A DNA stretch of 64,000 nucleotides. Origin: Roseburia sp. Its GTDB lineage: Bacteria > Bacillota > Clostridia > Oscillospirales > Ruminococcaceae. The stretch spans positions 1 to 64,000 of the forward strand of contig JAMPCH010000007.1 of assembly GCA_023666265.1 (NCBI GenBank), written 5' to 3'. The position numbers and the translations under genes are program-made. A model generated the notes under the pieces. It worked only from the letters and a program-made list of their open reading frames with translations. It was not told the DNA's origin and searched no databases. This document shows, piece by piece, positions 1-12,725 of this stretch. Every line of letters begins with the position of its first letter. The stretch's first letter is position 1.

Positions 1-60
1 AGATTTCTCATCCCCTTTAGTTCTCTCGCCGAATATAACGCGGCGGTCGGAAAGGAGTAG
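1..60 (+). CDS. C-terminal end of an upstream phage tail gene (partial)
   Basis: Frame 1 is open from the first base to a TAG at 58-60 and encodes 19 residues ending in AAVGKE. It stops six bases before the next gene, whose ribosome binding site (GGAAAGGAG) overlaps its end, as expected for an upstream gene of the same tail operon. Only the tail end is visible, so the product is unknown; position suggests a tape-measure or distal tail protein. Confidence 0.5.
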   Translation, partial: RFLIPFSSLAEYNAAVGKE

Positions 61-66
61 TGAAAA

Positions 67-1488
67 ATGGCAAATTTATCAACCTACGCAAAACTCATTA
101 AGCCCAAACAATTTCGGTTTGATGAGTCTGCGACTTTTCGGGTAGAATTTTCCGAAAATCTACTCTGCACCTATGCAACGCTGAAATTTTACGGAAGCAG
201 AGCCTTAAATTCCGATACGATCTATTTTACGCAATATGTTAATATGTCGTGGCTTGGAACGGGCTATGTCGAATTTACAGTCCCGCCTAATTCCCTCATC
301 TATATCCCCGAGGACGCGCCCACCCACCCGGCAGGAGGAACAGTCAGAGCGGTCGTCGAATTTGGCGTTGAGACAGACGAAAACGGGAACGCGATCCCGC
401 AATTCACAAGTAATGAGATCGCGGTCGATATTCTGGTAAATTGGAAGGGTGATTTCGGGATTACGGATACGCCGCTCACCGCCTCGGGATCGACGAAAAA
501 AATAAAGATCAAATACGTACAACGGGATTCCGTGGGCGCTTCCGACGCGACCGATGTAAATTCTTACCGCGTCGCTCTTTACGACACGGAATATAATTTG
601 ATCCAAGAAAGTGGCGCAATGTATGATTGGACGAAGTCTTATTTGTATAGGGAATACACTTTGACGGGACTTGAAGACCGCACAGAATACCTTGTTCGCG
701 TACAGGTCACGCTGAACGGAGGCTACGTCTTTGACTCGGGTTATTTGTCTCTTTCCGTCAAATACGCCGAAGAATCGATCCTCTCCCCTAATCTTCTCGT
801 TGAAAACGAACCGACCAAGGGAAGGATCAAACTCCGCGTTCAGACAGATATTTCTTATGACAGGGCAGTCGTCAGCAGAACCGTTTTAGACGCGGACGAC
901 TACATTCAGTTAAAGGAATATTCCCGTCGCGGATTTACATATTATGACTATTACGCGCTCCCGAATGTGACGTATTCGTATCGTGTAGTCTTGTACAGCG
1001 GCGATACGATCGTAGCGACCTATTATCAAAGGCTCACCCATCGGATCAGCGGGATCTGCATTGCGGATCAATACGGCGGCTATCACGCGATGGCGTTCAC
1101 GAAAAAATATCCCGTCAATAAAAACGATCGGGCGGCGATCGTTGAACCGATGGACAGTAAATATCCGTATGCCGTTATCAACGGAAACCTCGATTATGAT
1201 TCGGGAAGCATTTCGGCGACCTTCGCGCCTCTCGGCGACTGTATGCCCGACTTCTCAAATAACGCGGGGTACTCACAACGCGTTCGACATTGGCTCAACA
1301 ACGGAGAAGCAAAACTACTGAAATACTACAATGGCGAGTGCTGGCTCGTTTCGGTCTCCGGCATTACGACAGAACAGGAAGGAGATAGTGACGTATTATC
1401 TACAACGTTTAACTGGACGCAGATCGCAGACGCGACGCAAAACGAAAACTATATCAAGCTGGGAATGATGAACAATGAATCAACTTAA
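67..1488 (+). CDS. Phage tail protein with fibronectin-III-like repeats
   Basis: The 473-residue protein has no signal peptide or membrane segment and is rich in beta strands, Tyr and Thr. Two stretches (roughly residues 130-235 and 235-330) have the look of Fn3-like sandwiches, with motifs such as YTLTGLEDRTEYLVRV and LPNVTYSYRVVLY. Fn3-type domains are common in siphovirus tail and baseplate proteins, where they mediate weak surface binding. The gene overlaps the next tail gene by 14 bases, so both are translated together. A role as distal tail or baseplate hub accessory is inferred from position; no catalytic motif is visible. Confidence 0.7.
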   Translation: MANLSTYAKLIKPKQFRFDESATFRVEFSENLLCTYATLKFYGSRALNSDTIYFTQYVNMSWLGTGYVEFTVPPNSLIYIPEDAPTHPAGGTVRAVVEFGVETDENGNAIPQFTSNEIAVDILVNWKGDFGITDTPLTASGSTKKIKIKYVQRDSVGASDATDVNSYRVALYDTEYNLIQESGAMYDWTKSYLYREYTLTGLEDRTEYLVRVQVTLNGGYVFDSGYLSLSVKYAEESILSPNLLVENEPTKGRIKLRVQTDISYDRAVVSRTVLDADDYIQLKEYSRRGFTYYDYYALPNVTYSYRVVLYSGDTIVATYYQRLTHRISGICIADQYGGYHAMAFTKKYPVNKNDRAAIVEPMDSKYPYAVINGNLDYDSGSISATFAPLGDCMPDFSNNAGYSQRVRHWLNNGEAKLLKYYNGECWLVSVSGITTEQEGDSDVLSTTFNWTQIADATQNENYIKLGMMNNEST

Positions 1489-3199
1489 TGTGACCTCAAC
1501 GGACATTTCGCTTGTTTCTCAAAAGACACAAAAGCGACACGTTATGGTGCGCCTTGTCAATCGCGCAATGCAAAATGTTTTTACGTTCAGAGGACGGTTG
1601 ATTTCGGGAAGTGTCAATATCGACGACTCCTCCGCTGTCCGCCGTACCGCGAGCGTATCTATGGCGATCCCCGATACGGACATGGATCAGCTCGCCCATT
1701 TGAGCGAGGGATACTATATTCGTCTATATATCGGGATCGAAGATAATCGATCCGGGAATATAGCGTGGTATAACCAAGGAACGTTTATTATCAATCAAAA
1801 CGGCTTATCGTTTGATAAAACTTCCCGCACGCTGACGCTGAGCCTATCCGACCTGATGTTAGACTTAACGGGAGAAAGGAAGGGCGTTTTACACGCTTTC
1901 AGTTCTGTTGTAAAAAACAGCCAAAGGATCTCGGACGTGATGAAAAACGTTCTCTCTGTCTGCGGTTTTGAAAATTACGACATTACACCGATCTGCGTTT
2001 ATCGGGAGAGTAATTCCTTTTGGGATGATCAGTCGACGGAAAGCGATTACATGGTCCCCTATGATCTGGAATTTAGCGTCGGAGTGACCGCCTATGACAT
2101 ACTGGATAAGCTCGTATCTTTGTACCCGAATTGGGAAATTTTCTTCGATACGGACGGTGTGTTCGTCTGTCGACGTATGGAGACGGAAAAGGATAGCTCG
2201 TTTGTTGTATTGGACGATCAAAGAATGAGAGAGCTTGTCATCAGCGAAAGCACCACAGTCGATTTCACAAAGGTAAAAAACGTGGTAGAGGTATGGGGAA
2301 AGGACGGGAATTATTACGGCGAAGCAAGGGACGAAAATCCCGAATCGCCCTTTCAGCCTGACGCGATCGGAGAGATAAGGATGGTCGTACATTACGATCA
2401 GATTTATGACCGATATAAAGAGTCGGAGCTGGATAAACTGCAAGAACTCAATCTCGACATCGCGAAAAAGGAAGGCGAGATCGCCACGCTGACCAAACAG
2501 CTCACCGAAGCTCGGCAACAGCTAAAGATCGCCGAAGATCCGAAAGCCGAAAAGCCGGAGGGCTTACCTTCGATCGCGACCCTAAAAGGAACGATCGCGC
2601 AATGTCAAACCGATATAAAAAGCGCACAATCGGGACTTCCCGAACTACGCTCTCAAAAAAACGGGCTAATCGACATAAAAGGCGACGATATGGCGAAGGA
2701 GTGGGCGGAACAGTTGCTCTACGAAAATTGCAGACGACAAGACAGTATCACACTTCAATGCCTTTCCCTACCCTTTTTAAACGACATCAATTTTAAGATC
2801 TCCTATCGAAGCAAGGCGGACAACAAGGTCAAGATATACATTGTCCAAAGCCTTTCTCACGACTTCGCGGGGAACACAACGACTATTCAGGCAATGCGTT
2901 TTTACAACGATCAAGTGACCTCATACCAAGAACAGCTTGACCGACCCGTGATCAAGGCGTACAGCGTTGTCGGACGGGAGATCGTCGTTGAGGTCGAACC
3001 GGTTGACCACGCGGAATCGTATGTACTGTATCTGGACTTTAAAGCGATCGCGCGCGGAACAGGTACGACGATCGGATGTACCGTACCCGATTATGTAGTC
3101 GGGGAGCATATTATATCGATCACAGCCGAAGCGAACGGATACTCGGGAAGCCAGTATAGCGAAACGATTACGGTGAATATAGAGACGGAACACTCTTGA
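1475..3199 (+). CDS. Phage tail/baseplate protein with central coiled coil
   Basis: 574 residues. The N-terminal half (about 1-310) resembles siphovirus tail-associated proteins (DUF5048/Prophage-tail type; recognised by general pattern only), with many beta strands. Residues about 310-395 form a Lys/Glu/Gln-rich coiled coil (KKEGEIATLTKQLTEARQQL) that could trimerise the protein. The last 90 residues look like an Fn3-type sandwich (VSYVLYLDF region). It starts inside the previous gene, a typical tail operon overlap. It is the last structural tail gene before the accessory cargo. The exact role (hub or side tail protein) is inference. Confidence 0.7.
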   Translation: MNQLNVTSTDISLVSQKTQKRHVMVRLVNRAMQNVFTFRGRLISGSVNIDDSSAVRRTASVSMAIPDTDMDQLAHLSEGYYIRLYIGIEDNRSGNIAWYNQGTFIINQNGLSFDKTSRTLTLSLSDLMLDLTGERKGVLHAFSSVVKNSQRISDVMKNVLSVCGFENYDITPICVYRESNSFWDDQSTESDYMVPYDLEFSVGVTAYDILDKLVSLYPNWEIFFDTDGVFVCRRMETEKDSSFVVLDDQRMRELVISESTTVDFTKVKNVVEVWGKDGNYYGEARDENPESPFQPDAIGEIRMVVHYDQIYDRYKESELDKLQELNLDIAKKEGEIATLTKQLTEARQQLKIAEDPKAEKPEGLPSIATLKGTIAQCQTDIKSAQSGLPELRSQKNGLIDIKGDDMAKEWAEQLLYENCRRQDSITLQCLSLPFLNDINFKISYRSKADNKVKIYIVQSLSHDFAGNTTTIQAMRFYNDQVTSYQEQLDRPVIKAYSVVGREIVVEVEPVDHAESYVLYLDFKAIARGTGTTIGCTVPDYVVGEHIISITAEANGYSGSQYSETITVNIETEHS

Positions 3200-3258
3200 T
3201 TGGAAAGAGCCGCACATTGCCAAGCTGAAAATAATTTTTTAATTGACGCTCATGCATA

Positions 3259-3287
3259 TTGACATTCTTGTAAAAATCGGATATACT
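3259..3287 (+). promoter_or_regulatory. Consensus sigma-A promoter for the Panacea gene pair
   Basis: TTGACA at 3259-3264 and TATACT at 3282-3287 are separated by 17 bases. The promoter lies between the last tail gene and the putative antitoxin gene, so the accessory genes can be transcribed in the lysogen independently of the late tail operon. Confidence 0.8.
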
Positions 3288-3348
3288 ATACAATAAGGGA
3301 ACGTTAGAATGTTCAAGCCAAAAAAATATTAAAGGAGGAGATATTTTT

Positions 3349-3840
3349 ATGTTGACGGCAATACAGGTTGCTCAATATTTTTTATCCAAAGATCCGAATC
3401 GAGACACCTTTAATAAACAACTCGTTACTATGAATGGCAGAACATTTTATGCGGGTAACGCACGTCTGAACAAATATCTTCACATGGCTCAAAACCTTTA
3501 TATCGCAAAAACCGGAAAACAACTTTTTTCCAACAGCTTGTTCGCTTACGATAACGGTGGGGTCGTACCGGAGGTTCAAGAAAACTATGCGGTTCTGATT
3601 GAAAAAAAAGCGACGTGTCCCGAGGTGAACGAAGAGGAACTGAGATTTTTGGACAAAGTTGATTTGATTTTTCGCCACGCCTCTCTTGACGAGATGATCG
3701 AGATGTCCCACGAAGACGAGGAATGGATTCTTCATAACAAAGAATATAAAAAAGAAGATCAGCGCATGGATTCTCTTTCCCGTCTTGAGGAATACAGATT
3801 ACAATACGCAGATATTCTTAAGGTTATGGACAGGATGTGA
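3349..3840 (+). CDS. Panacea (SocA/DUF4065-like) antitoxin-type protein
   Basis: 163 residues. The N-terminal 85 residues match the Panacea pattern: a short helix (VAQYFLS), a conserved LNKYLHMAQNLYIAKTG segment, and the GGVVPEV segment that corresponds to the family's GPVVPxVY. Panacea domains act as promiscuous neutralising domains in type II toxin-antitoxin pairs; the partner lies next door. The C-terminal part is acidic and charged. The start has a strong AAAGGAGGAGA ribosome binding site. Composition is AT-richer than the tail genes, suggesting separate acquisition. Antitoxin function is inferred from family and context. Confidence 0.7.
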   Translation: MLTAIQVAQYFLSKDPNRDTFNKQLVTMNGRTFYAGNARLNKYLHMAQNLYIAKTGKQLFSNSLFAYDNGGVVPEVQENYAVLIEKKATCPEVNEEELRFLDKVDLIFRHASLDEMIEMSHEDEEWILHNKEYKKEDQRMDSLSRLEEYRLQYADILKVMDRM

Positions 3841-3844
3841 TCGC

Positions 3845-4270
3845 ATGGTGGAAGTGGGGCAAGTGTTATCCTTGCGTATCCGACTTAACAATCAAGGCAT
3901 TATTTCAACGACCAAGCACCCATATTTGATTGTTGATGTGGCAGAGAGCGACAACATCATAGAGATCGCGCAACTGGATTCTATTGCAGGGAAGGAATAT
4001 AAAGTGGCAATGAAAAGCAACAAAGCCATTTTTTATGACAACCCAACGGAAACAGTTATAGACCGAGACAGTTATATCCAAATGGACAACCGATTCCTTA
4101 TTGAGAATTTCAAAGAACTGGAACAATATAGACGGCAACCCGATAAATTAAGCCCGCAAAAGTTATCTGATGTTCTTCAATCTTATCGTGAATACCATCA
4201 TACTCACGCGATCGACGAAGACAAAATCGTATATATGGATCAGAATGAAATTCTCGGACTCAATAACTAA
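3845..4270 (+). CDS. Putative MazF/PemK-like toxin partner of the Panacea gene
   Basis: 141 residues from the ATG at 3845, chosen because an AGGAT ribosome binding site lies eight bases upstream. The ORF is also open upstream, inside the Panacea gene. It begins with a barrel-like segment (VEVGQVLSLRIRL), then TTKHPYLIVDV, which resembles the K-x-RP-x-LVI strand of MazF/PemK toxins, and ends in a helical, Gln- and Tyr-rich tail. Only four bases separate it from the antitoxin stop, so the pair is one operon. The toxin assignment is inference; a DUF of SH3-like fold is the alternative. It is AT-rich like its partner. Confidence 0.5.
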   Translation: MVEVGQVLSLRIRLNNQGIISTTKHPYLIVDVAESDNIIEIAQLDSIAGKEYKVAMKSNKAIFYDNPTETVIDRDSYIQMDNRFLIENFKELEQYRRQPDKLSPQKLSDVLQSYREYHHTHAIDEDKIVYMDQNEILGLNN

Positions 4271-4371
4271 TTGGGATTGCGACGCACCGTTTTAGTCGAC
4301 AAAGATACCGATTATCGGTTGTGATCAAAAAAAGAGCCTTTGGTCAATTTGCACAAAAAGAATTTTTTCTA

Positions 4372-4508
4372 TTGACTTTTACGAAATTTATGATATAGTA
4401 AATAGCGTAGAGAGTACGCCGATAGACGGTAACTCTCGACGGTTTATACGCGAAAACTCGAATATAATCCGCCTACTGGTTCTAGGCGGATTACTTCTTT
4501 TTCATGTA
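4372..4508 (+). ncRNA. Small-RNA unit A: promoter, structured ~100-nt RNA, terminator
   Basis: TTGACT (4372-4377), a 16-base spacer and TATAGT (4394-4399) precede about 100 nt without a convincing ORF, closed by a hairpin (ATCCGCCTA / TAGGCGGAT) followed by a T-rich run at about 4496-4508. Near its 5' end the RNA carries AGAGTACGCCGAT, shared apart from one base with the small-RNA unit near 11,750, where it reads AGAGTACGGCGAT. A hydrophobic reading frame converges on its terminator from the other strand, the layout of type I toxin-antitoxin loci. The antitoxin role is inference. Confidence 0.5.
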
Positions 4509-4513
4509 ATCTT

Positions 4514-4576
4514 TCACAATGCCGCAATTGTGACAACACAAGCGACAATGCTTACAACTGTATCAATCGAAATAAT
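4514..4576 (-). other. Possible short hydrophobic ORF converging on small-RNA unit A
   Basis: On the minus strand an AGGAG ribosome binding site (4584-4588) is followed seven bases later by a 20-codon frame encoding ISIDTVVSIVACVVTIAAL and a TGA. The peptide is one membrane span, as in type I toxins, and ends next to the terminator of the convergent RNA. The problem is the start: the codon at the right spacing is ATT, not ATG, GTG or TTG. It may be a decayed toxin, use a rare start, or be chance. Confidence 0.3.
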
Positions 4577-4635
4577 GTCTACACTCCTCTTGTGTAATTA
4601 CAACAATGCTTTTGAAAATATTGCCGTGCAACATA

Positions 4636-4665
4636 TTGACAAACACATCATCGAAGGTGTATAAT
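4636..4665 (+). promoter_or_regulatory. Promoter of the PRTase-SLOG operon
   Basis: TTGACA at 4636-4641, 18-base spacer, TATAAT at 4660-4665 (an overlapping second TATAAT is at 4665-4670). It sits about 35 bases before the start of the phosphoribosyltransferase gene and gives the cargo operon its own strong housekeeping-type promoter. Confidence 0.75.
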
Positions 4666-4701
4666 ATAATATGAGAAAATGTATATGTAGGCGTGATCAA
4701 T

Positions 4702-5271
4702 ATGAAAATATCTCCTATATCAATAGTAGGTCATTGGGATGAAGGGTATCGTCTTGACGTACATACCCAATACAGTATCCCGATTGGAGAGGATCAATTC
4801 GGTCATATGCAGTTTGACACGACTCGCACCGAGTTGGGAGAATTATTATATCAAGTCAAATACCAACACGATTATCAAAAAATACAGGATATGATAGACG
4901 CAATCGGTAATTTTGTGGTTGGCACATTTCTCGGAAGGGTTGATTGCGTAATCCCTGTTCCTCCTACTCAAAAGCGCACGGTACAGCATCTGGGGATTAT
5001 TGCCGAGGAGATTGCGAAATTACTTCATTGCGGTTACGCCGGGTCGGTTTTATCGAATAAGAGCGACGGGGCGGCAAAAGATAACCAAAGTCAAAGAAAC
5101 ATTGTCCAGACTGTATTTGCTTCATCACCGCATAATATTTTACTCGTTGACGATATAATCAACACAGGAGAAACAGCGAATGCCTGTGTAGATGTGCTTA
5201 GAAAAGACCGTTACATTAATAAGGTGTATTTTTTAGCGCTTACCGCTAGAAAACGATCCGCGTGGAGGTGA
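4702..5271 (+). CDS. ComF-like phosphoribosyltransferase of a prophage two-gene system
   Basis: 189 residues from the ATG at 4702 (a GTG at 4693 is also possible). The C-terminal half is a type I phosphoribosyltransferase: CVIPVPPTQKR resembles the ComF substrate loop, and ILLVDDIINTGET is the PRPP-binding signature with the paired Asp residues. The ComF zinc finger is absent, and residues 1-70 are an unrelated beta-rich segment. The protein probably transfers or removes ribose-5-phosphate from a base or nucleotide; the substrate is unknown. It is followed after four bases by a SLOG-domain gene. PRTases and SLOG proteins recur in nucleotide-centred conflict systems, so a defence role is plausible but unproven. 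Confidence 0.7.
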   Translation: MKISPISIVGHWDEGYRLDVHTQYSIPIGEDQFGHMQFDTTRTELGELLYQVKYQHDYQKIQDMIDAIGNFVVGTFLGRVDCVIPVPPTQKRTVQHLGIIAEEIAKLLHCGYAGSVLSNKSDGAAKDNQSQRNIVQTVFASSPHNILLVDDIINTGETANACVDVLRKDRYINKVYFLALTARKRSAWR

Positions 5272-5275
5272 TCCT

Positions 5276-5803
5276 ATGAAAGTCTTTATCGGTGGCGCAA
5301 GACAGATTCATTCCTTGGATCAGGACGTCACAAAAAAGTTGAACAATATTTTGACGAAAGGGTACGATATTCTTGTTGGGGACGCAAACGGAATTGATGC
5401 AAGCGTTCAAAAGTATTATTATGACAACGGGTATCGAAATGTCACGATTTACGCATCCAACGGCAAAGCTCGAAACAATGTAGGAAATTGGGAGATACAA
5501 CCCGTAAAAGTCGACAGCGGAGTTACGGGATTTGACTTTTACGCCGCAAAAGACCTTAAAATGGCGCAAGATTCCGATTGCGGTTTTATGATCTGGAACG
5601 GTAAAAGCCGTGGTACTTGGAACAACGTTTTAAATTTGTGCGACCGCGAAAAGCTCGTTGTGCTATATGTTTCTTTTGAAAAACGATTTTATAAAATCTT
5701 CAATACGCAACAAGCTATCGAGATAAAGAAGCAGATCGAATATTCGATAACATCGCCGCGAACGTATGACGGATCCGATCACGCACAACTACACTTGTTT
5801 TAG
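5276..5803 (+). CDS. SLOG-superfamily (YspA/cpYpsA-like) nucleotide-binding protein
   Basis: 175 residues with a near-perfect GGAGGTGATCC ribosome binding site that overlaps the stop of the previous gene. Residues 1-130 fit a Rossmann-like SLOG fold: an N-terminal strand and glycine turn (MKVFIGGARQI), a central ILVGDANGIDASVQKYYY motif in the place of the LOG/DprA nucleotide-binding G-D-x-x-G-x-D loop, and a later strand ending in CGFMIWNGKSRGTWNN. SLOG proteins bind or cleave nucleotides or NAD-like ligands in several immunity systems. Paired with the PRTase, it may sense or process a ribosylated nucleotide. A terminator follows, closing the operon. Confidence 0.7.
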   Translation: MKVFIGGARQIHSLDQDVTKKLNNILTKGYDILVGDANGIDASVQKYYYDNGYRNVTIYASNGKARNNVGNWEIQPVKVDSGVTGFDFYAAKDLKMAQDSDCGFMIWNGKSRGTWNNVLNLCDREKLVVLYVSFEKRFYKIFNTQQAIEIKKQIEYSITSPRTYDGSDHAQLHLF

Positions 5804-5834
5804 ATTTGTCGAAACTTAGAACAACATTACCATA

Positions 5835-5867
5835 AAAAGAATCCTTTGTAAAAGGGTTCTTTTTTAT
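5835..5867 (+). terminator. Rho-independent terminator after the PRTase-SLOG operon
   Basis: AAGAATCCTTT and AAAGGGTTCTT form a hairpin with a four-base loop, followed by a run of T. It separates the cargo operon from the lysis module. Confidence 0.8.
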
Positions 5868-5895
5868 TTATATCATCGAAAAAGGAGAATTTAAC

Positions 5896-6258
5896 ATGAG
5901 CTTTATAAACACTTTTTTAGAATGGCTTCCGACCCTGATCGTTGTGGTCGCGGTCGGTGTCAACGCCATTCTCCTCGTTGTCAGGATCATGAGCAACGCG
6001 GAATCAAACGTAAAGGAATGGCTTTTACTTGCCGTAACCGAAGCTGAAAAAGCGCTAGGCTCGGGGACGGGACAGTTAAAACTTCGTTAGACCTATCAGC
6101 AGTTTGTGAGCATCTTCCCTTCCTTCTCTAAGCTGGTCGGGTTCAGTACCTTTTCAGAATGGGTCGACGAGGCATTAGACAAGATGAGGCACCTCATGGA
6201 AACAAACACAAGCATTACCGCATACGTTAATACGGAATCAGACACAAAAGATGAGTAA
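5896..6258 (+). pseudogene. Phage holin (LLH-type) interrupted by an in-frame TAG
   Basis: From ATG 5896 (GGAGAAT ribosome binding site) the frame encodes an N-terminal membrane span (residues about 10-30), then EWLLLAVTEAEKALGSGTGQ and LKLR, hits TAG at 6088-6090, and continues in frame for 55 codons to TAA at 6256-6258. The downstream part (TYQQFVSIFP, then FSEWVDEALDKM) is the normal C-terminal half of LLH-family holins, in which a residue such as Tyr usually follows LKLR. Full length would be about 120 residues. Either a nonsense mutation has made a 64-residue truncated holin, or the stop is suppressed. The holin would form membrane lesions to release the amidase encoded next. Confidence 0.75.
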
Positions 6259-6282
6259 CCCAAAAGAAAGGAATGTCAACGA

Positions 6283-7410
6283 ATGGCAAAATATGTTTCA
6301 CCGAAGGACATTCGAGCAGATAAGACATACACGGTCAACGGTGTACTTTGGAATGAGTACCTTTTAAAGGATCACAATGTCAACAACATCTCACTCCCGC
6401 CGAAAAGAAAAGAGACTCTGTTGGGGATCACGATCCACAATACGGAGGATCTGGCGAACGTCTCGGACGACGGAAGGCAGTATACGGCGGCGACGATCAA
6501 CGATAATATGGGCGGCGTTTGTACGACGCTATACATTGACGAGCTTGGTGTATGGCAGAATCTCGAACTTGACTCGATGAATTACACCTGTGGCGACGGA
6601 CTGACGGGCGGCGGAAATTCACGAACGATCTCCTTTGAGGTCATTATGAACGGAACGACGGGTTCGGACAATTTAAAGGCTAGGGATAATGCCGCGCGAG
6701 TCGCGGCTTTTTTACTGTACAAATACGGATTGACCGTAAACGCGCTCTATACCCACAACTACTGGCTGAATAAGCGTAACGGCGTGAAGGGAACTTATGA
6801 TTCTCTCTGTACTACAAGAACGCCCACGCGGCATTGTCCCTATTATATCTTGACCGACGGGAACAACGGCTGGGAGAAATTCAGAAAGCTGGTCGATTCA
6901 TATCTCGTTCAGCTCGGGGGAAAGTCCGTTTATAAAGTTGTTAGCAATACAACAACCTTCACTTCCGCAACGACCGCTAAGGCTACGGCAGTTCAATATA
7001 TTATGAAATCTCTCGGAACGGCGGCGATACGTAATAAGGCGAACAAAACCGGATCGTACAGCAAACGTTGTGTTTCGGGAGATTATTATCTAATGGACGG
7101 GCTGATCGTCAATGCTCAAAAGGAAAAATGGCTAAAACATCGCGGTACAGCGACCTACTCTATGTACGAGGACGGGGATATCTTGTTCTCAAAGGCGGGG
7201 ACTTACAAAGCCTATGTCGCAACAAACAAACTGAACGTCCGCTCCGCGCCTTCCCTCTCAGGACATAAAATGGGAATTTTAAGTAGTGGCGCGACCGTGT
7301 ACGGATTTGACAAACCGACGACCGAGAAGGACGGGTATCAATGGCTTCGGATCGTCTACAATGGGAAGATCGCATATGTGGCGAAAAACTACCTGAAAGA
7401 AGGCAAATGA
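6283..7410 (+). CDS. Phage endolysin: N-acetylmuramoyl-L-alanine amidase with SH3b domain
   Basis: 375 residues. Residues about 45-195 are an Amidase_2 (type 2 amidase) domain: ITIHNT supplies the first zinc His, YTHNYW the region of the second, and TRHCPYYI the last part of the site. It cleaves the bond between N-acetylmuramic acid and the first L-alanine of peptidoglycan. Residues about 230-300 form a linker with no recognised domain, and the last 70 residues are an SH3b cell-wall-binding domain (LNVRSAPSLSGHKMG). No signal peptide is present, so export depends on the holin just upstream. Ribosome binding site is AGAAAGGAA. It is full length and looks functional. Confidence 0.9.
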   Translation: MAKYVSPKDIRADKTYTVNGVLWNEYLLKDHNVNNISLPPKRKETLLGITIHNTEDLANVSDDGRQYTAATINDNMGGVCTTLYIDELGVWQNLELDSMNYTCGDGLTGGGNSRTISFEVIMNGTTGSDNLKARDNAARVAAFLLYKYGLTVNALYTHNYWLNKRNGVKGTYDSLCTTRTPTRHCPYYILTDGNNGWEKFRKLVDSYLVQLGGKSVYKVVSNTTTFTSATTAKATAVQYIMKSLGTAAIRNKANKTGSYSKRCVSGDYYLMDGLIVNAQKEKWLKHRGTATYSMYEDGDILFSKAGTYKAYVATNKLNVRSAPSLSGHKMGILSSGATVYGFDKPTTEKDGYQWLRIVYNGKIAYVAKNYLKEGK

Positions 7411-7413
7411 GAA

Positions 7414-7884
7414 ATGAACGGTCGCAAAAAGTCAAAGAAGCTTCCGCTTTCGGCGAGTCACCTAATGCTATATGTTGCCTTGGGCGTATATCTGGTCGTA
7501 GCGGGCTTCGGAGTCGCCTCGGTCTATCTCTTGCTCCGGTCGGAATATGTTGAATACGCGGTTCAGGTGTTGATCGCGCTTTTCGGTTTTGTCGGCGTGT
7601 GCGGGAGCGTTTCGATCTCTTTTTATTCATGGAAGGCGAAGGCGGAAAACGAGATCGGTTCGTCAAACCAAAAATATAGGGATCGTCTCCAAATGGCGAA
7701 GCAAGTCTGTGACAATCTAAAAGAACAAACGATCAGCGGTCAGTCCGTCGCTCTGTTAAAGGAACTGATCAGCGATAATGACTGTAATTGCATACACGGT
7801 CGCGCCGAAACGAACGTCGTCGAAACAGAACAAACAGCATTTACGGTGGACGATATTTTAAACGATATGGAGGGACAAGGATAG
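7414..7884 (+). CDS. Phage protein with two membrane segments
   Basis: 156 residues: a basic N-terminus (NGRKKSKK), two hydrophobic segments at about residues 17-40 and 48-72, and a charged cytoplasmic C-terminal helix ending in an acidic tail. It follows the endolysin by three bases and overlaps the next gene by one base. I do not recognise a family. Position and topology suggest a second holin-like or spanin-like component of the lysis module, but no motif proves it. Confidence 0.55.
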   Translation: MNGRKKSKKLPLSASHLMLYVALGVYLVVAGFGVASVYLLLRSEYVEYAVQVLIALFGFVGVCGSVSISFYSWKAKAENEIGSSNQKYRDRLQMAKQVCDNLKEQTISGQSVALLKELISDNDCNCIHGRAETNVVETEQTAFTVDDILNDMEGQG

Positions 7885-8270
7885 TGGACATCGAAGTCGT
7901 CAAACTCATTTTACAGATCTTAAGCATGATAGGGGTCGGTACGATCATCTCGGGCGTGATCTCCCGTAAAATGACAGTCTATGAAAATCAAAAAACAGAC
8001 GATGAGCAGAGAAAGCAAAAAGAATCCGAGGACAGTCAAAATCTGATCCGCTATTTATCGGATGCGAACCGCCTCATGCTTCGCAACGCGATTTACGAGC
8101 TATGCGGAAAGGTCAAGAAGCGCGGCTATATCTATTTGTACGAAGCCGAAAACCTCCGTGAAATTTTAGAGACCTATGAGAAGCTCGGCGGAAACGGAAC
8201 AGCGCACGCTACCGCGACCCATACGCTCGAAGACTATGAGGTCATCACGGCAGAAGAGGAGATCGACTAG
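7884..8270 (+). CDS. Phage membrane-anchored protein with coiled coil
   Basis: 128 residues from a GTG at 7884, placed eight bases after GAGGGACAAG and overlapping the TAG of the upstream gene by one base. The frame is open further upstream, but that part only shadows the previous gene. One N-terminal membrane segment (residues about 6-25) is followed by a Lys/Glu/Gln-rich coiled coil and a conserved-looking NRLMLRNAIYELCGK segment. No function can be named; a lysis accessory or superinfection factor would fit the place in the operon. Confidence 0.55.
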   Translation: MDIEVVKLILQILSMIGVGTIISGVISRKMTVYENQKTDDEQRKQKESEDSQNLIRYLSDANRLMLRNAIYELCGKVKKRGYIYLYEAENLREILETYEKLGGNGTAHATATHTLEDYEVITAEEEID

Positions 8271-8290
8271 CGATCGGAAAGGAGATCAAA

Positions 8291-8581
8291 ATGATCACTT
8301 TGGACAAAATGGATCACGGGAATACCGTTCGGCTTATGTTGAGCGGTCTATCCTCGGATCAAAAGCCGACCGAACAAGTGGAGAGCGTTTACCTCACACA
8401 AGGATCGGTTTTTAAGGAAATCGATACATCCCACGTCTATTTATTCGACAAAGAAAATAAGCGCTGGGTAAAGCAGACGAACAGCGCTTCGGGCGGAAAC
8501 TCGCCGGGCGGCGGTTCCGATGCGGAGGAAAGCTACCCAACCGCCACAGCACAGGATATACGCGATTTGTGGAATCTTTAA
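8291..8581 (+). CDS. Small phage protein with C-terminal DIRDLW tag
   Basis: 96 residues with a GGAAAGGAGATC ribosome binding site. The first 70 residues are soluble and mixed; a Gly/Ser-rich linker follows, and the protein ends in TAQDIRDLWNL. The next gene carries almost the same motif (TEDDIRGLW), which suggests a shared assembly or docking tag. This combination is seen in phage genes near the tail fibre; the function is unknown. Confidence 0.55.
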   Translation: MITLDKMDHGNTVRLMLSGLSSDQKPTEQVESVYLTQGSVFKEIDTSHVYLFDKENKRWVKQTNSASGGNSPGGGSDAEESYPTATAQDIRDLWNL

Positions 8582-8648
8582 ACGGTATCTTCCGCTTTAT
8601 GCGGTTGAACAATAAATATTTTTAATAAGTCTTAGGAGGACAAACATT

Positions 8649-9086
8649 ATGGCAAACACAAAATACGTCACCCTTGAAAATCTCGGTTTAAACAACGAGC
8701 TTATGCGAAAGTACAGCGACGCGAACGATGAGACGATCAAGGCGCTTATCGACGCGGTTTCGGCTCAGATCGACGTGCTGAACGGCGACGGCGAAGGTAG
8801 CGTGAACAAGACGGTCACCGATGAGATCGCAAAGATCGTAGCGGACGCGCCCGATTCGCTCAATACACTCAAGGAACTTTCCGACTGGATCACGACGCAC
8901 ACTTCGGACGCCGCCGCGATGAATACCGCGATCGCGGAGAACAAGACGGCGGTAGAAACCTTAAACGAAAAGGTCGAGGCGCTTGAAGCGGCAGATCTGC
9001 CGGTCGCCACGGAGGACGATATTCGCGGGCTTTGGGCGACGACCGATCCCGGCGAGGACAATAGTCCCGAAACCGCGACCGAGTAA
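8649..9086 (+). CDS. Phage fibre-associated coiled-coil protein
   Basis: 145 residues, acidic, largely helical, with heptad-like Ala/Leu/Ile spacing through residues 20-115 and a segment TLKELSDWITTHTSDAAAM that recurs in Firmicutes phage tail-fibre and head-fibre proteins. It ends with DIRGLWATT, paralleling the tail of the previous protein. It has a TTAGGAGGAC ribosome binding site and its own terminator just downstream. A trimeric stalk or connector for the collagen-like fibre encoded next is the likely role (inference). Confidence 0.6.
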   Translation: MANTKYVTLENLGLNNELMRKYSDANDETIKALIDAVSAQIDVLNGDGEGSVNKTVTDEIAKIVADAPDSLNTLKELSDWITTHTSDAAAMNTAIAENKTAVETLNEKVEALEAADLPVATEDDIRGLWATTDPGEDNSPETATE

Positions 9087-9102
9087 TTTTTTTGTAGGGC
9101 AG

Positions 9103-9129
9103 GAAGTCTCATTTGAGACTTCCTGTTTT
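9103..9129 (+). terminator. Hairpin terminator before the collagen-like fibre gene
   Basis: GGAAGTCTCA and TGAGACTTCC form a perfect ten-base stem with a short loop, followed by TGTTTT. It divides the stalk gene from the fibre gene and could make fibre expression partly independent. Confidence 0.75.
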
Positions 9130-9145
9130 CCTAATAAGGAGGCGA

Positions 9146-10030
9146 ATGAAAGTGCAAGAGAAACTTGTTGATCTGCGCGGTCTGGATGTATTCAAAGAAG
9201 AGGTGGAGAAGCACCTTGGCGCAGAACCAAGTGTTTCGATCGAGAAGATTGAGCAAACCGTCAAATCTGACACGGACGATGGCAACAACATTATGACTGT
9301 CACGCTTTCCGACGGAAGAACCTTTGATTTCACGGTACAAAACGGTTCAAAAGGTACAAAGGGCGACAAGGGGGAAAAGGGATCGCCCGGAACTGAGGGA
9401 TCAAACGGGGTATCCGTTACGAAGGTGGAACAGACAAAAACATCGACGGAAGACGCGGGGACAAACACAATTACCGTCACTTTATCGAATGGAGAGAAGT
9501 TTAGCTTCGACGTAAGGAACGGGTCGAAGGGAACGGCGGGGACGAACGGAAAGGACGGTACAAACGGCGCGCAGGGTGATACGGGCGCGGCGGCGGGCTT
9601 CGGAACGCCGACCGCGACGGTCGACGCGAACGTCGGAACGCCGTCCGTCACCGTGACCGCCTCGGGCGCGAACACCGCAAAGGTGTTCAGCTTCGCGTTC
9701 AAAAACCTAAAGGGCGCGAAGGGGGATAAAGGAGACACAGGAGCGACCCCGACGATCAAAGCGGCGGCAGGTACGAATATCGGCACGGTCGGTACGCCTT
9801 CCGTAACGGCGACGACGAGCGGGACGACGACGACCTTTACGTTTAACAACCTAAAGGGCGCAAAGGGAGACACAGGCGCGACGGGCGCGAAAGGCGCTAC
9901 CGGGGCGACGGGAGCGACAGGAGCGACGGGTCCTCAAGGTCCTGCGGGTCCCGGACTGCTTAAAGTCGGGACAGCCGCGCCGACCACGACCACCTGTCCC
10001 GCGAACGCTTGGTACGGGCAGTACAGTTAA
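9146..10030 (+). CDS. Collagen-like phage tail fibre
   Basis: 294 residues from the ATG at 9146, which follows AAGGAGG at optimal spacing (an earlier ATG at 9113 lies inside the terminator). The protein alternates short beta repeats ([14 protein letters not shown] type) with Gly-X-Y tracts such as [14 protein letters not shown] and a final run of GAT triplets ending GPQGPAGPG. Collagen triplets in phage fibres form trimeric triple helices. The C-terminal 25 residues end in NAWYGQYS. Repeat number is prone to slippage, which can change fibre length. Receptor binding is the likely function. Confidence 0.8.
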
Positions 10031-10041
10031 GGGGGGCTTTC

Positions 10042-10503
10042 ATGGGCATTACGGCAAATGTTGGCGGGGTCTTAAAGACGCTTCGAAAGGTCACGGCGAA
10101 CGTAAGCGGCGTGTTGAAGGGGCTGAACCCGATCCACGCGAATGTGAACGGGATATTAAAGGTAATACACGGTTTAATACCCGATACGATCACGGGATCA
10201 AATTCAACTTCGGCGATGACACGGACGCTTGCGACAGGTATAACGCTGTATAGCACTTGTACCATCACGTTTAGTGCAAACATTACGGGATCAATCTCTA
10301 ACTACAGCACAGGAGCGAGAACGCTCATTATCGTCAATGCCTCCAATGAAGACGTTTTTCAAGGAACTGTCGGAGACAGAACCGATATGTATAAGCAAGT
10401 CGTACTGCCGGCAGGCGTTTATAGCATTAAGGTTGCCGTGTTCGACGTATATAGGACTTCCTATGCTTACCCGACGGTCACGTATACGATCACTTTTTCA
10501 TAA
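10042..10503 (+). CDS. Phage fibre decoration protein with tandem ANV-GVLK repeats
   Basis: 153 residues from ATG 10042, which follows AAGGGGGG. The N-terminus has three tandem repeats of about 14 residues built on the pattern [AT]-N-V-x-G-[VI]-L-K (ANVGGVLK, ANVSGVLK, ANVNGILK). The rest is Ser/Thr-rich and beta-sheet-like with alternating hydrophobic residues (GVYSIKVAVFDV). The next gene encodes a paralogue with the same layout. The repeats probably anchor the protein along the fibre or virion; the C-terminal sandwich may bind carbohydrate. No family name recognised. Confidence 0.6.
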   Translation: MGITANVGGVLKTLRKVTANVSGVLKGLNPIHANVNGILKVIHGLIPDTITGSNSTSAMTRTLATGITLYSTCTITFSANITGSISNYSTGARTLIIVNASNEDVFQGTVGDRTDMYKQVVLPAGVYSIKVAVFDVYRTSYAYPTVTYTITFS

Positions 10504-10525
10504 CAACGGAAGGAGGAATCGCACT

Positions 10526-11029
10526 ATGGGAATTTTTGTCAACGCAAATGGCACAATCAAGGAACTAAAGACCGTCAATGTGAATGTAAATGGTGCGATC
10601 AAATCACTATCTTCCGTATACGCAAACGCGGGGGGGATAAAGAAAATATTCCCTTTGGAAGCTTTCAAAGTGTTGAAGGGGACTTTACAAAGCGGTGGTC
10701 ACAATCAAGCCGAAACCGCTACAAGCCTTACCAATATAGCTATCTCGAAGTCATGCACGGCTAAAATTAAGGTGCACATTGACGCTATCGGCACAGGTAG
10801 CAACGGTACTGTTAGAAGCGTAGCGATCGCCGGCTCTGAAAATAAAAGTGTAGAGCTGAGAACGGCAGACGGCTTCTCTTCAAGTGGTGCTAATATTGAT
10901 TGGTATGGTGAGACACAGCTATCACCGGGTGCATATAGCTTTAGCTTTTTTGTCTTTAACGTGTCCGCGTCAAGCGCGGGCGTCTCTTATTCGACATCAA
11001 CCTTTACGTACGAAATATCGTTTTTTTAA
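10526..11029 (+). CDS. Paralogous phage fibre decoration protein
   Basis: 167 residues from ATG 10526 with a GGAAGGAGGAAT ribosome binding site; the frame is open upstream but overlaps the previous gene. Three N-terminal repeats (VNANGTIKEL, VNVNGAIKSL, ANAGGIKKI) match those of the previous gene product. The C-terminal 115 residues differ in sequence but share the pattern, ending with SPGAYSFSFFVFNVS and FTYEISFF. Duplication followed by divergence of the distal domain is the usual route to altered host recognition. Confidence 0.6.
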   Translation: MGIFVNANGTIKELKTVNVNVNGAIKSLSSVYANAGGIKKIFPLEAFKVLKGTLQSGGHNQAETATSLTNIAISKSCTAKIKVHIDAIGTGSNGTVRSVAIAGSENKSVELRTADGFSSSGANIDWYGETQLSPGAYSFSFFVFNVSASSAGVSYSTSTFTYEISFF

Positions 11030-11041
11030 GGAGAAAAATTT

Positions 11042-11452
11042 ATGGCACAAACGATCACATTTAAGGACGGGACGGTCGTTCCCGTTCTTGCGGTTTATAG
11101 CAACAAGGATCTCATTCAGGGCGCGTATCGTGAATCCTACGAGATTCGGTTTTCGCCCGAGGCGACGACGTATGAAGCGCTTTTGGCGCTCGCAAACTCG
11201 GAGAATTTGTCGGAGCTGATCCTTACAGAATTGGACGAAGCGGGCGAGGTGACGGCGCGGTTCTCACACTTTAACTTCACGATCGTGACGGGTATGGGCG
11301 TAAAGACCGACCCGATCGACGGTTCGCGGTATCTCTATCTCTCGGTCGCGCAGAAGTCGGACGCGGAGCTCGCGATCGAGAAGCTGACGAGGGAGAACGA
11401 GGACATTCAAATGGCGCTGGTGGAGCTGGCGGAAATTATTTCGGAGGTGTAA
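11042..11452 (+). CDS. Small phage protein with C-terminal coiled coil
   Basis: 136 residues. The first 95 look like a compact alpha/beta domain (ITFKDGTVVPVLAVYSN), and the last 40 form a helix with heptads (AIEKLTRENEDIQMALVELA). Such proteins are often found just before the CD1375/XkdX micro-protein in Clostridia prophages. The stop overlaps the ribosome binding site of the next gene. The function is unknown. Confidence 0.55.
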   Translation: MAQTITFKDGTVVPVLAVYSNKDLIQGAYRESYEIRFSPEATTYEALLALANSENLSELILTELDEAGEVTARFSHFNFTIVTGMGVKTDPIDGSRYLYLSVAQKSDAELAIEKLTRENEDIQMALVELAEIISEV

Positions 11453-11455
11453 AAA

Positions 11456-11557
11456 ATGGCGAAAATTTATGTCAATCAGATTAAGGCGGGAAATATCACG
11501 ATCGAAAAAGTCCCGGCGAGATGGCGGGAACAGGTGGAAGAACTGCTTAAAAAGTAA
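11456..11557 (+). CDS. CD1375/XkdX-type phage micro-protein
   Basis: A 33-codon gene with a GGAGGTG ribosome binding site formed by the end of the preceding gene. The product pattern MAKIYVNQIKAG...TIEKVPARWREQV is that of the CD1375 family found at the end of tail modules in many Clostridia prophages. It is too short for ordinary gene callers. Function unknown; a structural or assembly micro-protein is likely. A strong terminator follows four bases later, ending the late operon. Confidence 0.75.
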   Translation: MAKIYVNQIKAGNITIEKVPARWREQVEELLKK

Positions 11558-11561
11558 AATT

Positions 11562-11599
11562 TAGGGGTAGACCTTCTTGGGGTCTGCCCCTATTTTTTT
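11562..11599 (+). terminator. Terminator of the prophage late operon
   Basis: TAGGGGTAGACC pairs with GGTCTGCCCCTA around a seven-base loop, followed by seven T. It ends the fibre operon. Confidence 0.9.
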
Positions 11600-11648
11600 A
11601 AATTTCGACACGTTACGACAAATTGCGCGGTAAATCTTTCAAAAAGAC

Positions 11649-11798
11649 TTGACACGCAAATATTTGTCTGTTATAATACAGGTGTCATTTAACTCGCTGT
11701 ACTCTGACAAAGGAAACACATAAAATAAGAATGAAGAATATAACAAAGAGTACGGCGATTGATTTTAGGCAGTCGCTTTTGGTGACTGCCTCCTTTTT
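11649..11798 (+). ncRNA. Small-RNA unit B: consensus promoter, ~115-nt RNA, terminator
   Basis: TTGACA (11649-11654), 17-base spacer, TATAAT (11672-11677) drive a transcript of about 115 nt. It ends at a hairpin (AGGCAGTC at 11767-11774, GACTGCCT at 11784-11791) with a T run. GTACTCT at 11699-11705 can pair with AGAGTAC at 11747-11753. The motif AGAGTACGGCGAT differs by one base from the same motif in unit A. A 23-codon frame starting at ATG 11732 runs through the terminator but has no good ribosome binding site. The opposite strand carries a hydrophobic frame covered by this RNA, as in antisense type I antitoxins. Confidence 0.5.
11685..11786 (-). other. Hydrophobic antisense ORF, candidate type I toxin (no canonical start)
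   Basis: The minus strand has AAAGGAGG directly before a 33-codon frame whose product is polar, then strongly hydrophobic (SIAVLFVIFFILILCVSF), then basic (VRVQRVK), the typical layout of membrane toxins of type I systems. It is fully covered by small-RNA unit B, and the terminator hairpin of that RNA would sequester the ribosome binding site. The first usable codon is GTC rather than GTG or ATG, so translation is uncertain and the gene may be decayed. Confidence 0.3.
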
Positions 11799-11836
11799 AT
11801 AAGGACGGCTATTTTGCAGTTTTTAAGCCTATGTTC

Positions 11837-12277
11837 TTATTGATAAAGTAGTTCATTTAAAGTGTTGCCATCAGCCGCCATATCCTCCACAATATCCGCG
11901 ATCGGGTCGCCCTTCGACTGGAGGTACGCCGCCGTAAACGGAACGCCCGCCGCGCTCGCGGGATATACGCCGTTCGCGTGGTCGATGTAATAGCTCCCGT
12001 TCCCATATCGGTCAAAGCTCTTCGCCCCCTCGCCCTTCGTGAGCTGGGTGACGATGCTCCCGATCATCTCGAGGTGCGAGAGCTCCTCCGTCCCTATATC
12101 CGTCAAAAGCGCGATCCCGCGCTTATCCTTTTGCCCAAATCGCTGGGAAAGATAGCGGAGCGAGGCGGCGAGCTCGCCGTCGGGACCGCCATACTGGCTC
12201 AAAATAAACCCCGCGAGCCTCGGGTTTCGATTTTTGATCTTGACCGGAAATTCCGTTCGTTTTTCAAATATAAACAT
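11837..12277 (-). pseudogene. cotJC: Spore coat protein CotJC, 3' end replaced by prophage
   Basis: 146 residues. Residues 1-135 match CotJC, a manganese-catalase-like (ferritin-fold) coat protein: GGPDGELAASLRYLSQRF, GTEELSHLE and GVPFTAAYLQSKGDPIADI are all present, giving metal-ligand candidates Glu35, Glu65, His68 and Glu131. Family members run to about 190 residues; here the last 50 or so, including the final helix with its His/Glu ligands, are replaced by ten foreign residues and a stop. This coincides with the prophage edge. The protein should be inactive unless prophage excision restores the gene. It is the third gene of the cotJABC operon. Confidence 0.8.
11860..11880. other. Probable prophage attachment junction within cotJC
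   Basis: Reading cotJC on the minus strand, the family-conserved segment E-D-M-A-A is encoded up to about 11,873. Family members then continue with an E-Q-K-A-R type helix, but here the frame switches to unrelated residues and stops at 11,837. Phage genes lie on the other side. The crossover therefore lies at or just beside the stretch reading TCAGCCGCCATATCC on the plus strand. The matching left junction is outside the window. Confidence 0.6.
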
Positions 12278-12289
12278 ATCGCTCCCCCC

Positions 12290-12556
12290 TTACATCATCT
12301 GCTCGCCCGGCCATACGCCAAAAAGCCAGTCCCACTCGCCGTTTTTTCCCGCGCCGCAGGCGCGGAGCGGATAACAACAGCTCTCAAAAGCCTCGCGACA
12401 GGTCTCGTATTGACGACACGCCTCGCGAAACAGCTCGAGCGCGCGCGGATCGTCCGGGTGGGTGTCTAAATAAAGCTGGAGGTCGGTCGCGTAAAAGCCC
12501 GCCTCGCTGACGTTTTTGAGGAGCTGAGCGTAGCTCGGCTTCGCGTTATTTTCCAT
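12290..12556 (-). CDS. cotJB: Spore coat protein CotJB
   Basis: 88 residues from the ATG at 12556, which is preceded by AGAGGGGGATC; an in-frame ATG at 12574 lies inside cotJA. The pattern LYLDTHPDDPRALELF is diagnostic of CotJB, and the C-terminus (WDWLFGVWPGE) also fits. CotJB is an inner coat or coat-associated protein made in the mother cell. It overlaps cotJA by 11 bases and lies 12 bases before cotJC. Confidence 0.85.
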   Translation of the reverse strand: MENNAKPSYAQLLKNVSEAGFYATDLQLYLDTHPDDPRALELFREACRQYETCREAFESCCYPLRACGAGKNGEWDWLFGVWPGEQMM

Positions 12557-12725
12557 TCCAGATCCCCCTCTCATATTCCTCGATCGTGATGTTCAGCTCG
12601 GGAAAGACCGTCCCGTTCTGCAGCGCGGCGGACGGCGAATAGACCTTCCCGATCCGCTGAACGGGGACGTATGCGTAGCCGACCCTCGGCTCGCGACAGG
12701 TCTCGTTTTCATTTGGATTGATCAT
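12546..12725 (-). CDS. cotJA: Spore coat-associated protein CotJA
   Basis: 59 residues, first gene of cotJABC. GYAYVPVQRIGKVYSPSAAL and the following NGTVFPEL match the CotJA core (family: Q-x-[FY]-x-P-x-x-A-L-x-x-G-T-L-x-P-x-L). The ATG at 12725 has a GGAAAGGAAT ribosome binding site. Expression in the mother cell under sigma-E is known for the family; a CATAGAAT box lies about 60 bases upstream, but I could not find a convincing matching -35. Confidence 0.8.
   Translation of the reverse strand: MINPNENETCREPRVGYAYVPVQRIGKVYSPSAALQNGTVFPELNITIEEYERGIWNGK

Follow-up and report, generated by a model that had tools for sequence, protein, structure and literature searches.

The coat gene cotJC of a Roseburia sp. 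is cut at codon 136 by a prophage, and its missing 3' part lies undamaged at the other end of that prophage, beside a large serine recombinase (LSR). From the sequence alone we are very nearly certain that this is a site-specific insertion by the LSR and that cotJC is restorable from its two parts. Judged from where the breaks fall in its relatives, cotJC is moreover shown to be hit again and again, at a small set of fixed codons, by several lineages of LSR. How, then, might a spore former with such a gene come by an intact coat protein? By analogy with known elements, we think it quite probable that the cotJC elements are skin-like (excised in the mother cell during sporulation to rebuild the gene), with the timing of excision inferred.

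Two halves of a gene at two ends of a prophage

By the window we mean the whole stretch of DNA that was analysed, the first 64,000 nucleotides of contig C77 (C77:1-64000) in a genome, G000, of 98 contigs. C77 starts inside the prophage, and since the window starts at base 1 of the contig, we looked for the left end of the prophage on other contigs. The window holds the following features.

1..11870, forward strand: right-hand prophage part (tail and lysis end), with phage families, running leftward off the contig
1475..3199, forward strand: phage tail protein (DUF5048, phrog_1887)
6283..7410, forward strand: phage endolysin (amidase 2 and SH3)
9113..10030, forward strand: collagen-like tail fibre
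11649..11798, forward strand: promoter-terminator unit, a possible small RNA of ~105 nt (12/12 sigma-70 consensus; 11-pair terminator-like stem)
11837-12277, reverse strand: truncated cotJC reading frame of 146 aa, whose residues 1-136 match Mn_catalase PF05067
11837..11870, reverse strand: ten foreign codons and stop, the phage half of the attachment site, without CotJC similarity past codon 136
11871..11872, reverse strand: core dinucleotide GA of codon 136, the crossover point, found also at the 3' exon junction on contig C66 and at all other codon-136 insertions examined
11873..12277, reverse strand: cotJC 5' exon, codons 1-135 (PF05067), aligning without gaps to the intact CotJC of sister species
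12290..12574, reverse strand: cotJB (PF12652, 7.9e-21)
12546..12725, reverse strand: cotJA (PF11007, 7.8e-12)

CotJC is a manganese-catalase-like coat protein, and its gene, placed downstream of cotJA and cotJB, is broken inside the coding part. The truncated frame covers profile positions 1-150 of 284 in PF05067 (5.4e-36), and its residues 1-137 are 77-85% identical to the intact CotJC (185 aa) of sister species. After Ala135, at codon 136, it closes with the ten foreign codons GNTLNELLYQ; the break falls at 11870-11872, where the codon reads GAT here and GAA or GAG in relatives. Alignment to the sister species thus bears out the original prediction, made from the window by itself, that cotJC is intact as far as E-D-M-A-A and then gives way to ten unrelated codons where the phage ends. 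Phage arms resembling the one at 11837..11870 are present at other codon-136 insertions. As a separate matter, the possible small RNA on the phage side of the junction has a 91-base copy, 91% identical, at the end of another contig (G000:C51:17937-18027); an Rfam search near the window junction, this unit included, gave nothing at gathering score.

When the genome was searched with the C-terminal 50 residues of the relatives' CotJC, one strong place emerged, C66:30149-30298 on the forward strand (E 5.5e-24), in the following setting.

C66:28416-30002: LSR of 528 aa, with Resolvase, Recombinase, zinc-ribbon and DUF4368 domains
C66:30149-30301, forward strand: cotJC 3' exon, its frame running without defect to the stop, occurring once in the genome
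Window 11801-11817 (forward strand) and G000:C66:28381-28397: the 17-mer AAGGACGGCTATTTTGC, with only these two copies in 2.8 Mb

What had been predicted was a 3' fragment of cotJC at the far end of the prophage, with a serine or tyrosine recombinase beside it, and the LSR ends ~150 bp upstream of the 3' exon; the case that would have counted as refutation, no such fragment at the left prophage edge, was checked for and did not occur. Because the matching 3' part occurs once in the same genome, and beside a recombinase, the break in cotJC is not chance. Phage genes fill C66:1-30148 (a DnaB-like helicase, a primase, DNA polymerase III alpha, an Erf-like protein, NrdD and a dUTPase), so that the prophage is at least 42 kb long, assembled in two pieces, the C77 end and the C66 end.

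What ties these two ends together? Gene order around cotJC is not conserved among relatives, and synteny gives no confirmation of the pairing; for the middle of the prophage, terminase-like matches exist on other contigs, none of them assignable to it. An independent tie comes from the 17-mer AAGGACGGCTATTTTGC, which is exclusive to the two prophage ends: one copy is 53 bp away from the window junction, and the other lies immediately upstream of the LSR on C66. That C66 and C77 are directly adjacent in the assembly was considered and rejected, the contig starts having no overlap. The 17-mer copy at the LSR makes up an inverted repeat together with the promoter spacer, perhaps an operator, and the prophage also encodes a cysteine-desulfurase-like aminotransferase (L054:4705-5814) and a DNA methylase (L054:5912-6727).

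The attachment core, which had been placed near TCAGCCGCCATATCC, proves to be the GA at window 11871-11872. The 5' junction reads ATGGCGGCT-GA-TGGCAACAC and the 3' junction GTGGCACCA-GA-ACAAAAAGCC; joining the two pieces at GA, with ATGGCGGCT-GA-ACAAAAAGCC as the predicted attB joint, gives 185 codons with the canonical sequence ...EDMAA-E-QKAR..., and the circle predicted to be released carries the attP GTGGCACCA-GA-TGGCAACAC. Around GA the two phage halves mirror each other as an imperfect inverted repeat, which would fit the attP of a serine integrase. Our initial reading of the core, a crossover at TGGC, was dropped, since GA yields the exact conserved sequence and matches an assembly fork in a related genome, G033 (below). 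A core of 2 bp is weak alone, and the weight rests on the presence of GA at all codon-136 sites and on that fork. Each of the 20 pairs of pieces that we joined, from 20 genomes, met in frame and without a stop, with shared cores of 2-13 bp.

A recurrent target in the genus and the order

The genus was surveyed in 71 genomes. A cotJC match is present in 55 of them, and with the categories read from the match table, ~21 carry the gene at full length and ~27 carry it split at codon 31 (site A), 51 (B), 62 (C) or 136 (D). In four others the sole alteration is at codon 175 (E), a class in which cotJC was assessed without the fate of its last ten codons. Against the break there is nearly always an LSR (for ~30 of them the distance to a broken end of cotJC is at most 170 bp), and some genes hold two or three elements: the breaks of G094 are at A, C and E, those of G085 at A and codon 125, those of G061 at C and E, and G018, G022 and G093 have two broken sites each. 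The second exon of the G094 gene has a mere 31 codons, and its three exons, once joined, give one open frame. Where a piece went undetected, as in some genomes, the incompleteness of metagenome-assembled genomes (MAGs) may be the reason.

Codons 31, 62, 136 and 175 fall in the most conserved motifs of the protein (GGPDGE, DIGTEELxH, EDxAAEQKAR and HFQRFGE), which presumably hold the metal ligands, as in manganese catalases generally. A recombinase that targets the DNA of a conserved cotJC motif has a host available in nearly every species.

One genome holds both states of the site. In G033, contig C50 carries the occupied joint and contig C41 an empty joint with an intact gene; C41 starts 52 bp into the exon that C50 carries, matches C50 letter for letter through ...GCAGCAGA, and then runs into the intact gene, so that the assembly forks exactly after GA. 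The sampled population held both occupied and empty forms, and excision cannot be distinguished from the presence of uninfected cells.

The relatives offer several further oddities. In G094 (L168:7714-9897) an LSR frame continues stop-free into cotJC exon 3 as a 728-codon open frame, possibly a recombinase-CotJC fusion before excision. Extra copies of cotJC from codon 133 onward stand apart from a complete or otherwise split gene in G011 (L167:6498-6626) and G005 (L176:480-635), perhaps as scars of earlier elements. Just upstream of codon-62 LSRs in relatives there is a short reading frame with a common pattern near its end (L039:8380-8745, L049:9177-9413, L218:5561-5755), a candidate directionality factor for which there are no functional data. 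In G014, a one-contig genome, the two pieces (C1:198617-198805 and 873263-873643; L036, L035) lie on the same strand, in the wrong order and 675 kb apart, and the pieces in G065:C25 (L148, L149) are likewise on the same strand in the wrong order. Excision from such an order would split the chromosome; whether through rearrangement or assembly error, it is unexplained.

Beyond the genus we sampled 177 genomes of the order, each at least 90% complete, of which 148 had a match, which in some was to nothing closer than a distant paralogue. Among the matches listed, 83 genes are of full length and at least 43 are broken at the same three main sites (11 breaks start at codons 23-30, 20 at codons 45-63, and 12 end at 136-140), so that cotJC is split in about a third of the sampled species that have it. 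Ten of the order loci that were fetched have an LSR directly against the break. On single contigs the elements measure 8.6 kb in the one-contig genome G207, 4.0 kb in G226, ~3.2 kb in G150, 13.2 kb in G129 and 16.7 kb in G107; the small ones, of 3-10 kb, keep the LSR and have, by eye, no evident phage genes. The ~3.2 kb element of G150 holds a complete Fe/Mn superoxide dismutase gene (L217:16403-17032). In four loci (L222, L224, L228 and L232, from G145, G147, G227 and G181) the contig stops within ~130-500 bp of the break, which would be the outcome if integrated and excised forms were both present or if the element were repeated.

Might the splitting be no more than an artefact of assembly or binning? 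Most of these genomes are fragmented MAGs, several contigs stop within a few hundred bases of the joint, and the piece order in G014 and G065 is odd. Yet identical codons, the GA core and the LSR clade return in many independent assemblies, and G207 and the highly contiguous G226 and G210 have both cotJC pieces and the LSR on one contig; we give the idea next to no credence.

IMG/VR, searched with the recombinase alone, returned ten relatives, seven of them with usable flanks. Six of these seven contigs carry a cotJC piece broken at codon 136 (L066 has none), with the LSR within ~250 bp in five and at 3.3 kb in L065. In L059 and L063 a middle cotJC exon is flanked by two different LSRs, and in L064 a further LSR, at codon 175, comes after the exon past codon 136. 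Judging by the id scheme, three of the record ids, 2846178487, 2846205631 and 2878502230, seem to be those of isolate genomes. No close relative of the recombinase (at least 60% identity) was found in named phages.

The recombinases themselves follow the sites. On a 60-row tree, LSR clades track the insertion site with 15 label changes against a shuffled mean of 27.6 (0 of 200 shuffles as low); codon-136 LSRs form one tree neighbourhood, whereas codon 62 has been taken as a site by at least two lineages far apart on the tree, and codon 31 by two. Long branches enter into some of the joins, which call for caution. Leaving aside a second G018 copy (C39), the full-length relatives of the LSR in the genus at 45% identity or more number nine, and all nine are on contigs with a codon-136 break; eight of them abut the break, and that of G033 lies 6.6 kb away.

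The truncated frame in the window would also suit a dead gene, one broken by the prophage and with both parts now decaying, and decayed copies do exist: a few relatives, G013 and G098 among them, lack pieces or carry stops (three in G098). The 3' part in our genome is intact, however, every tested joint is in frame, and the pieces of 24 split genes hold no stop codon and evolve much as intact genes do, with pooled pN/pS by region of 0.18-0.25 between split genes against 0.15-0.25 between intact ones. Only in the last exon is the split value somewhat higher (0.23 against 0.15 for intact). These ratios have their limits, synonymous sites being near saturation and insertion ages unknown; the constraint supports a function for the pieces but gives no date. 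The insertion in the window may also be a young one, and constraint on its own pieces would then tell us little. For the genus as a whole decay is already contradicted, and we consider it very improbable.

Excision and its possible link to sporulation

We return to the reading that we prefer, the skin-like element, for which the analogy rests on skin, SPbeta, gin and yin (PMC5025042, PMC4191935, PMC5595907, PMC10747680). In it, the LSR integrated the prophage at codon 136, and recombination of both GA joints by the same enzyme would restore full-length cotJC and release the attP circle. The switch to excision would be made by a directionality factor encoded on the element, during sporulation and in the mother cell; the dying mother cell would then make intact CotJC, and the spore would inherit the integrated element. 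Known from B. subtilis, cotJC is a mother-cell gene. The genome in the window looks like that of a spore former, on the evidence of an intact spoIVA only, the sole sporulation marker tested, which is present and intact in 58 of the 71 genus genomes.

That the prophage may rebuild cotJC in the manner of skin had been part of the original prediction. It has gained support from purifying selection, from the order-wide recurrence and from the empty joint in G033; excision tied to sporulation has not been shown. We identified no promoter or directionality factor that would tie excision to sporulation, and no directionality factor in the window element; a scan for sigma-E promoters upstream of the LSRs gave no signal, its positive control, cotJA, being weak too, and G000's own assembly has no sign of an excised form. 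The LSR of the window prophage is preceded by a promoter of sigma-A type, which would fit the C. difficile scheme (below) but proves nothing.

An ordinary temperate phage that uses cotJC as its attB, and whose lysogens lack CotJC except for occasional excision or induction with no sporulation link, has to be weighed here. With its tail, lysis and replication genes the window element resembles a complete phage, LSR phages often use conserved genes, the LSR promoter is of the constitutive type, and the empty joint of G033 could stem from uninfected cells. What such a phage leaves unaccounted for is the recurrent retention of constrained pieces in at least 43 genomes across the order, the survival of the LSR in 3-10 kb elements without evident phage genes, and the readability of every piece in genes that hold two or three elements. 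We judge it unlikely, and still prefer the skin-like reading.

A larger picture can be sketched, one about which we keep more doubt than belief. The order's CotJC may commonly be encoded in pieces, with one to three independent recombinases putting them together in the mother cell alone and so, in places, through several excisions; unrelated LSR lineages would have converged on the codons around the conserved catalytic motifs, and the elements domesticated there would range from complete prophages to islands of ~3 kb.

Known interruptions of sporulation genes

Elements in sporulation genes are known from other spore formers, mostly as single cases in single species. SPbeta, in spsM of Bacillus subtilis, is a phage with an LSR at one end whose precise excision rebuilds the gene (PMC4191935). 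Ours is likewise a structural-gene phage in a mother-cell spore-envelope gene, with an LSR at one end; it differs in its cotJC target, its bacterial class, and the many insertions at several sites of one gene, and its excision timing is only inferred. The skin element interrupts sigK in B. subtilis and C. difficile, and in the latter the LSR is constitutive and a directionality factor controlled by sigma-E and SpoIIID sets the timing (PMC5025042). As in skin, the LSR adjoins the junction, the core is short and joining restores the frame; unlike sigK, a regulator, cotJC encodes a coat enzyme, and its element has no identified directionality factor.

Other spore formers, too, have prophage-like elements in their late sporulation genes, among them yin in yabG of C. 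botulinum (PMC10747680), vfbin in spoVFB and vrin in spoVR (both named in PMC4191935). These are single cases in single strains, whereas the cotJC elements recur order-wide at fixed codons. With gin, a non-phage island of 28.6 kb with three recombinases in gerE of B. cereus ATCC10987 (PMC5595907), the relatives' 3-10 kb elements share an LSR within a sporulation gene; the window element, having tail, endolysin and replication genes, does not meet gin's non-phage criterion. Recurrence is a feature, too, of the heterocyst interruption elements of cyanobacteria, where one gene can hold several (nifD of Rivularia PCC 7116 has four; PMC4874684) and where genes used in a terminal cell are again interrupted repeatedly, though in a different phylum, cell type and set of target genes.

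In the open literature (subscription papers and preprints were not covered) we came across no paper that names cotJC as a target or describes such recurrence in spore formers. Should excision be demonstrated, sporulation in gut Clostridia would commonly involve programmed rearrangement of DNA, cotJC would have escaped gene finders in many species, and the cotJC set would offer many pairs of recombinase and attachment site with known targets. Single interruptions of sporulation genes were already known; what sets the present case apart is one coat gene hit recurrently across an order, by up to three elements at a time.
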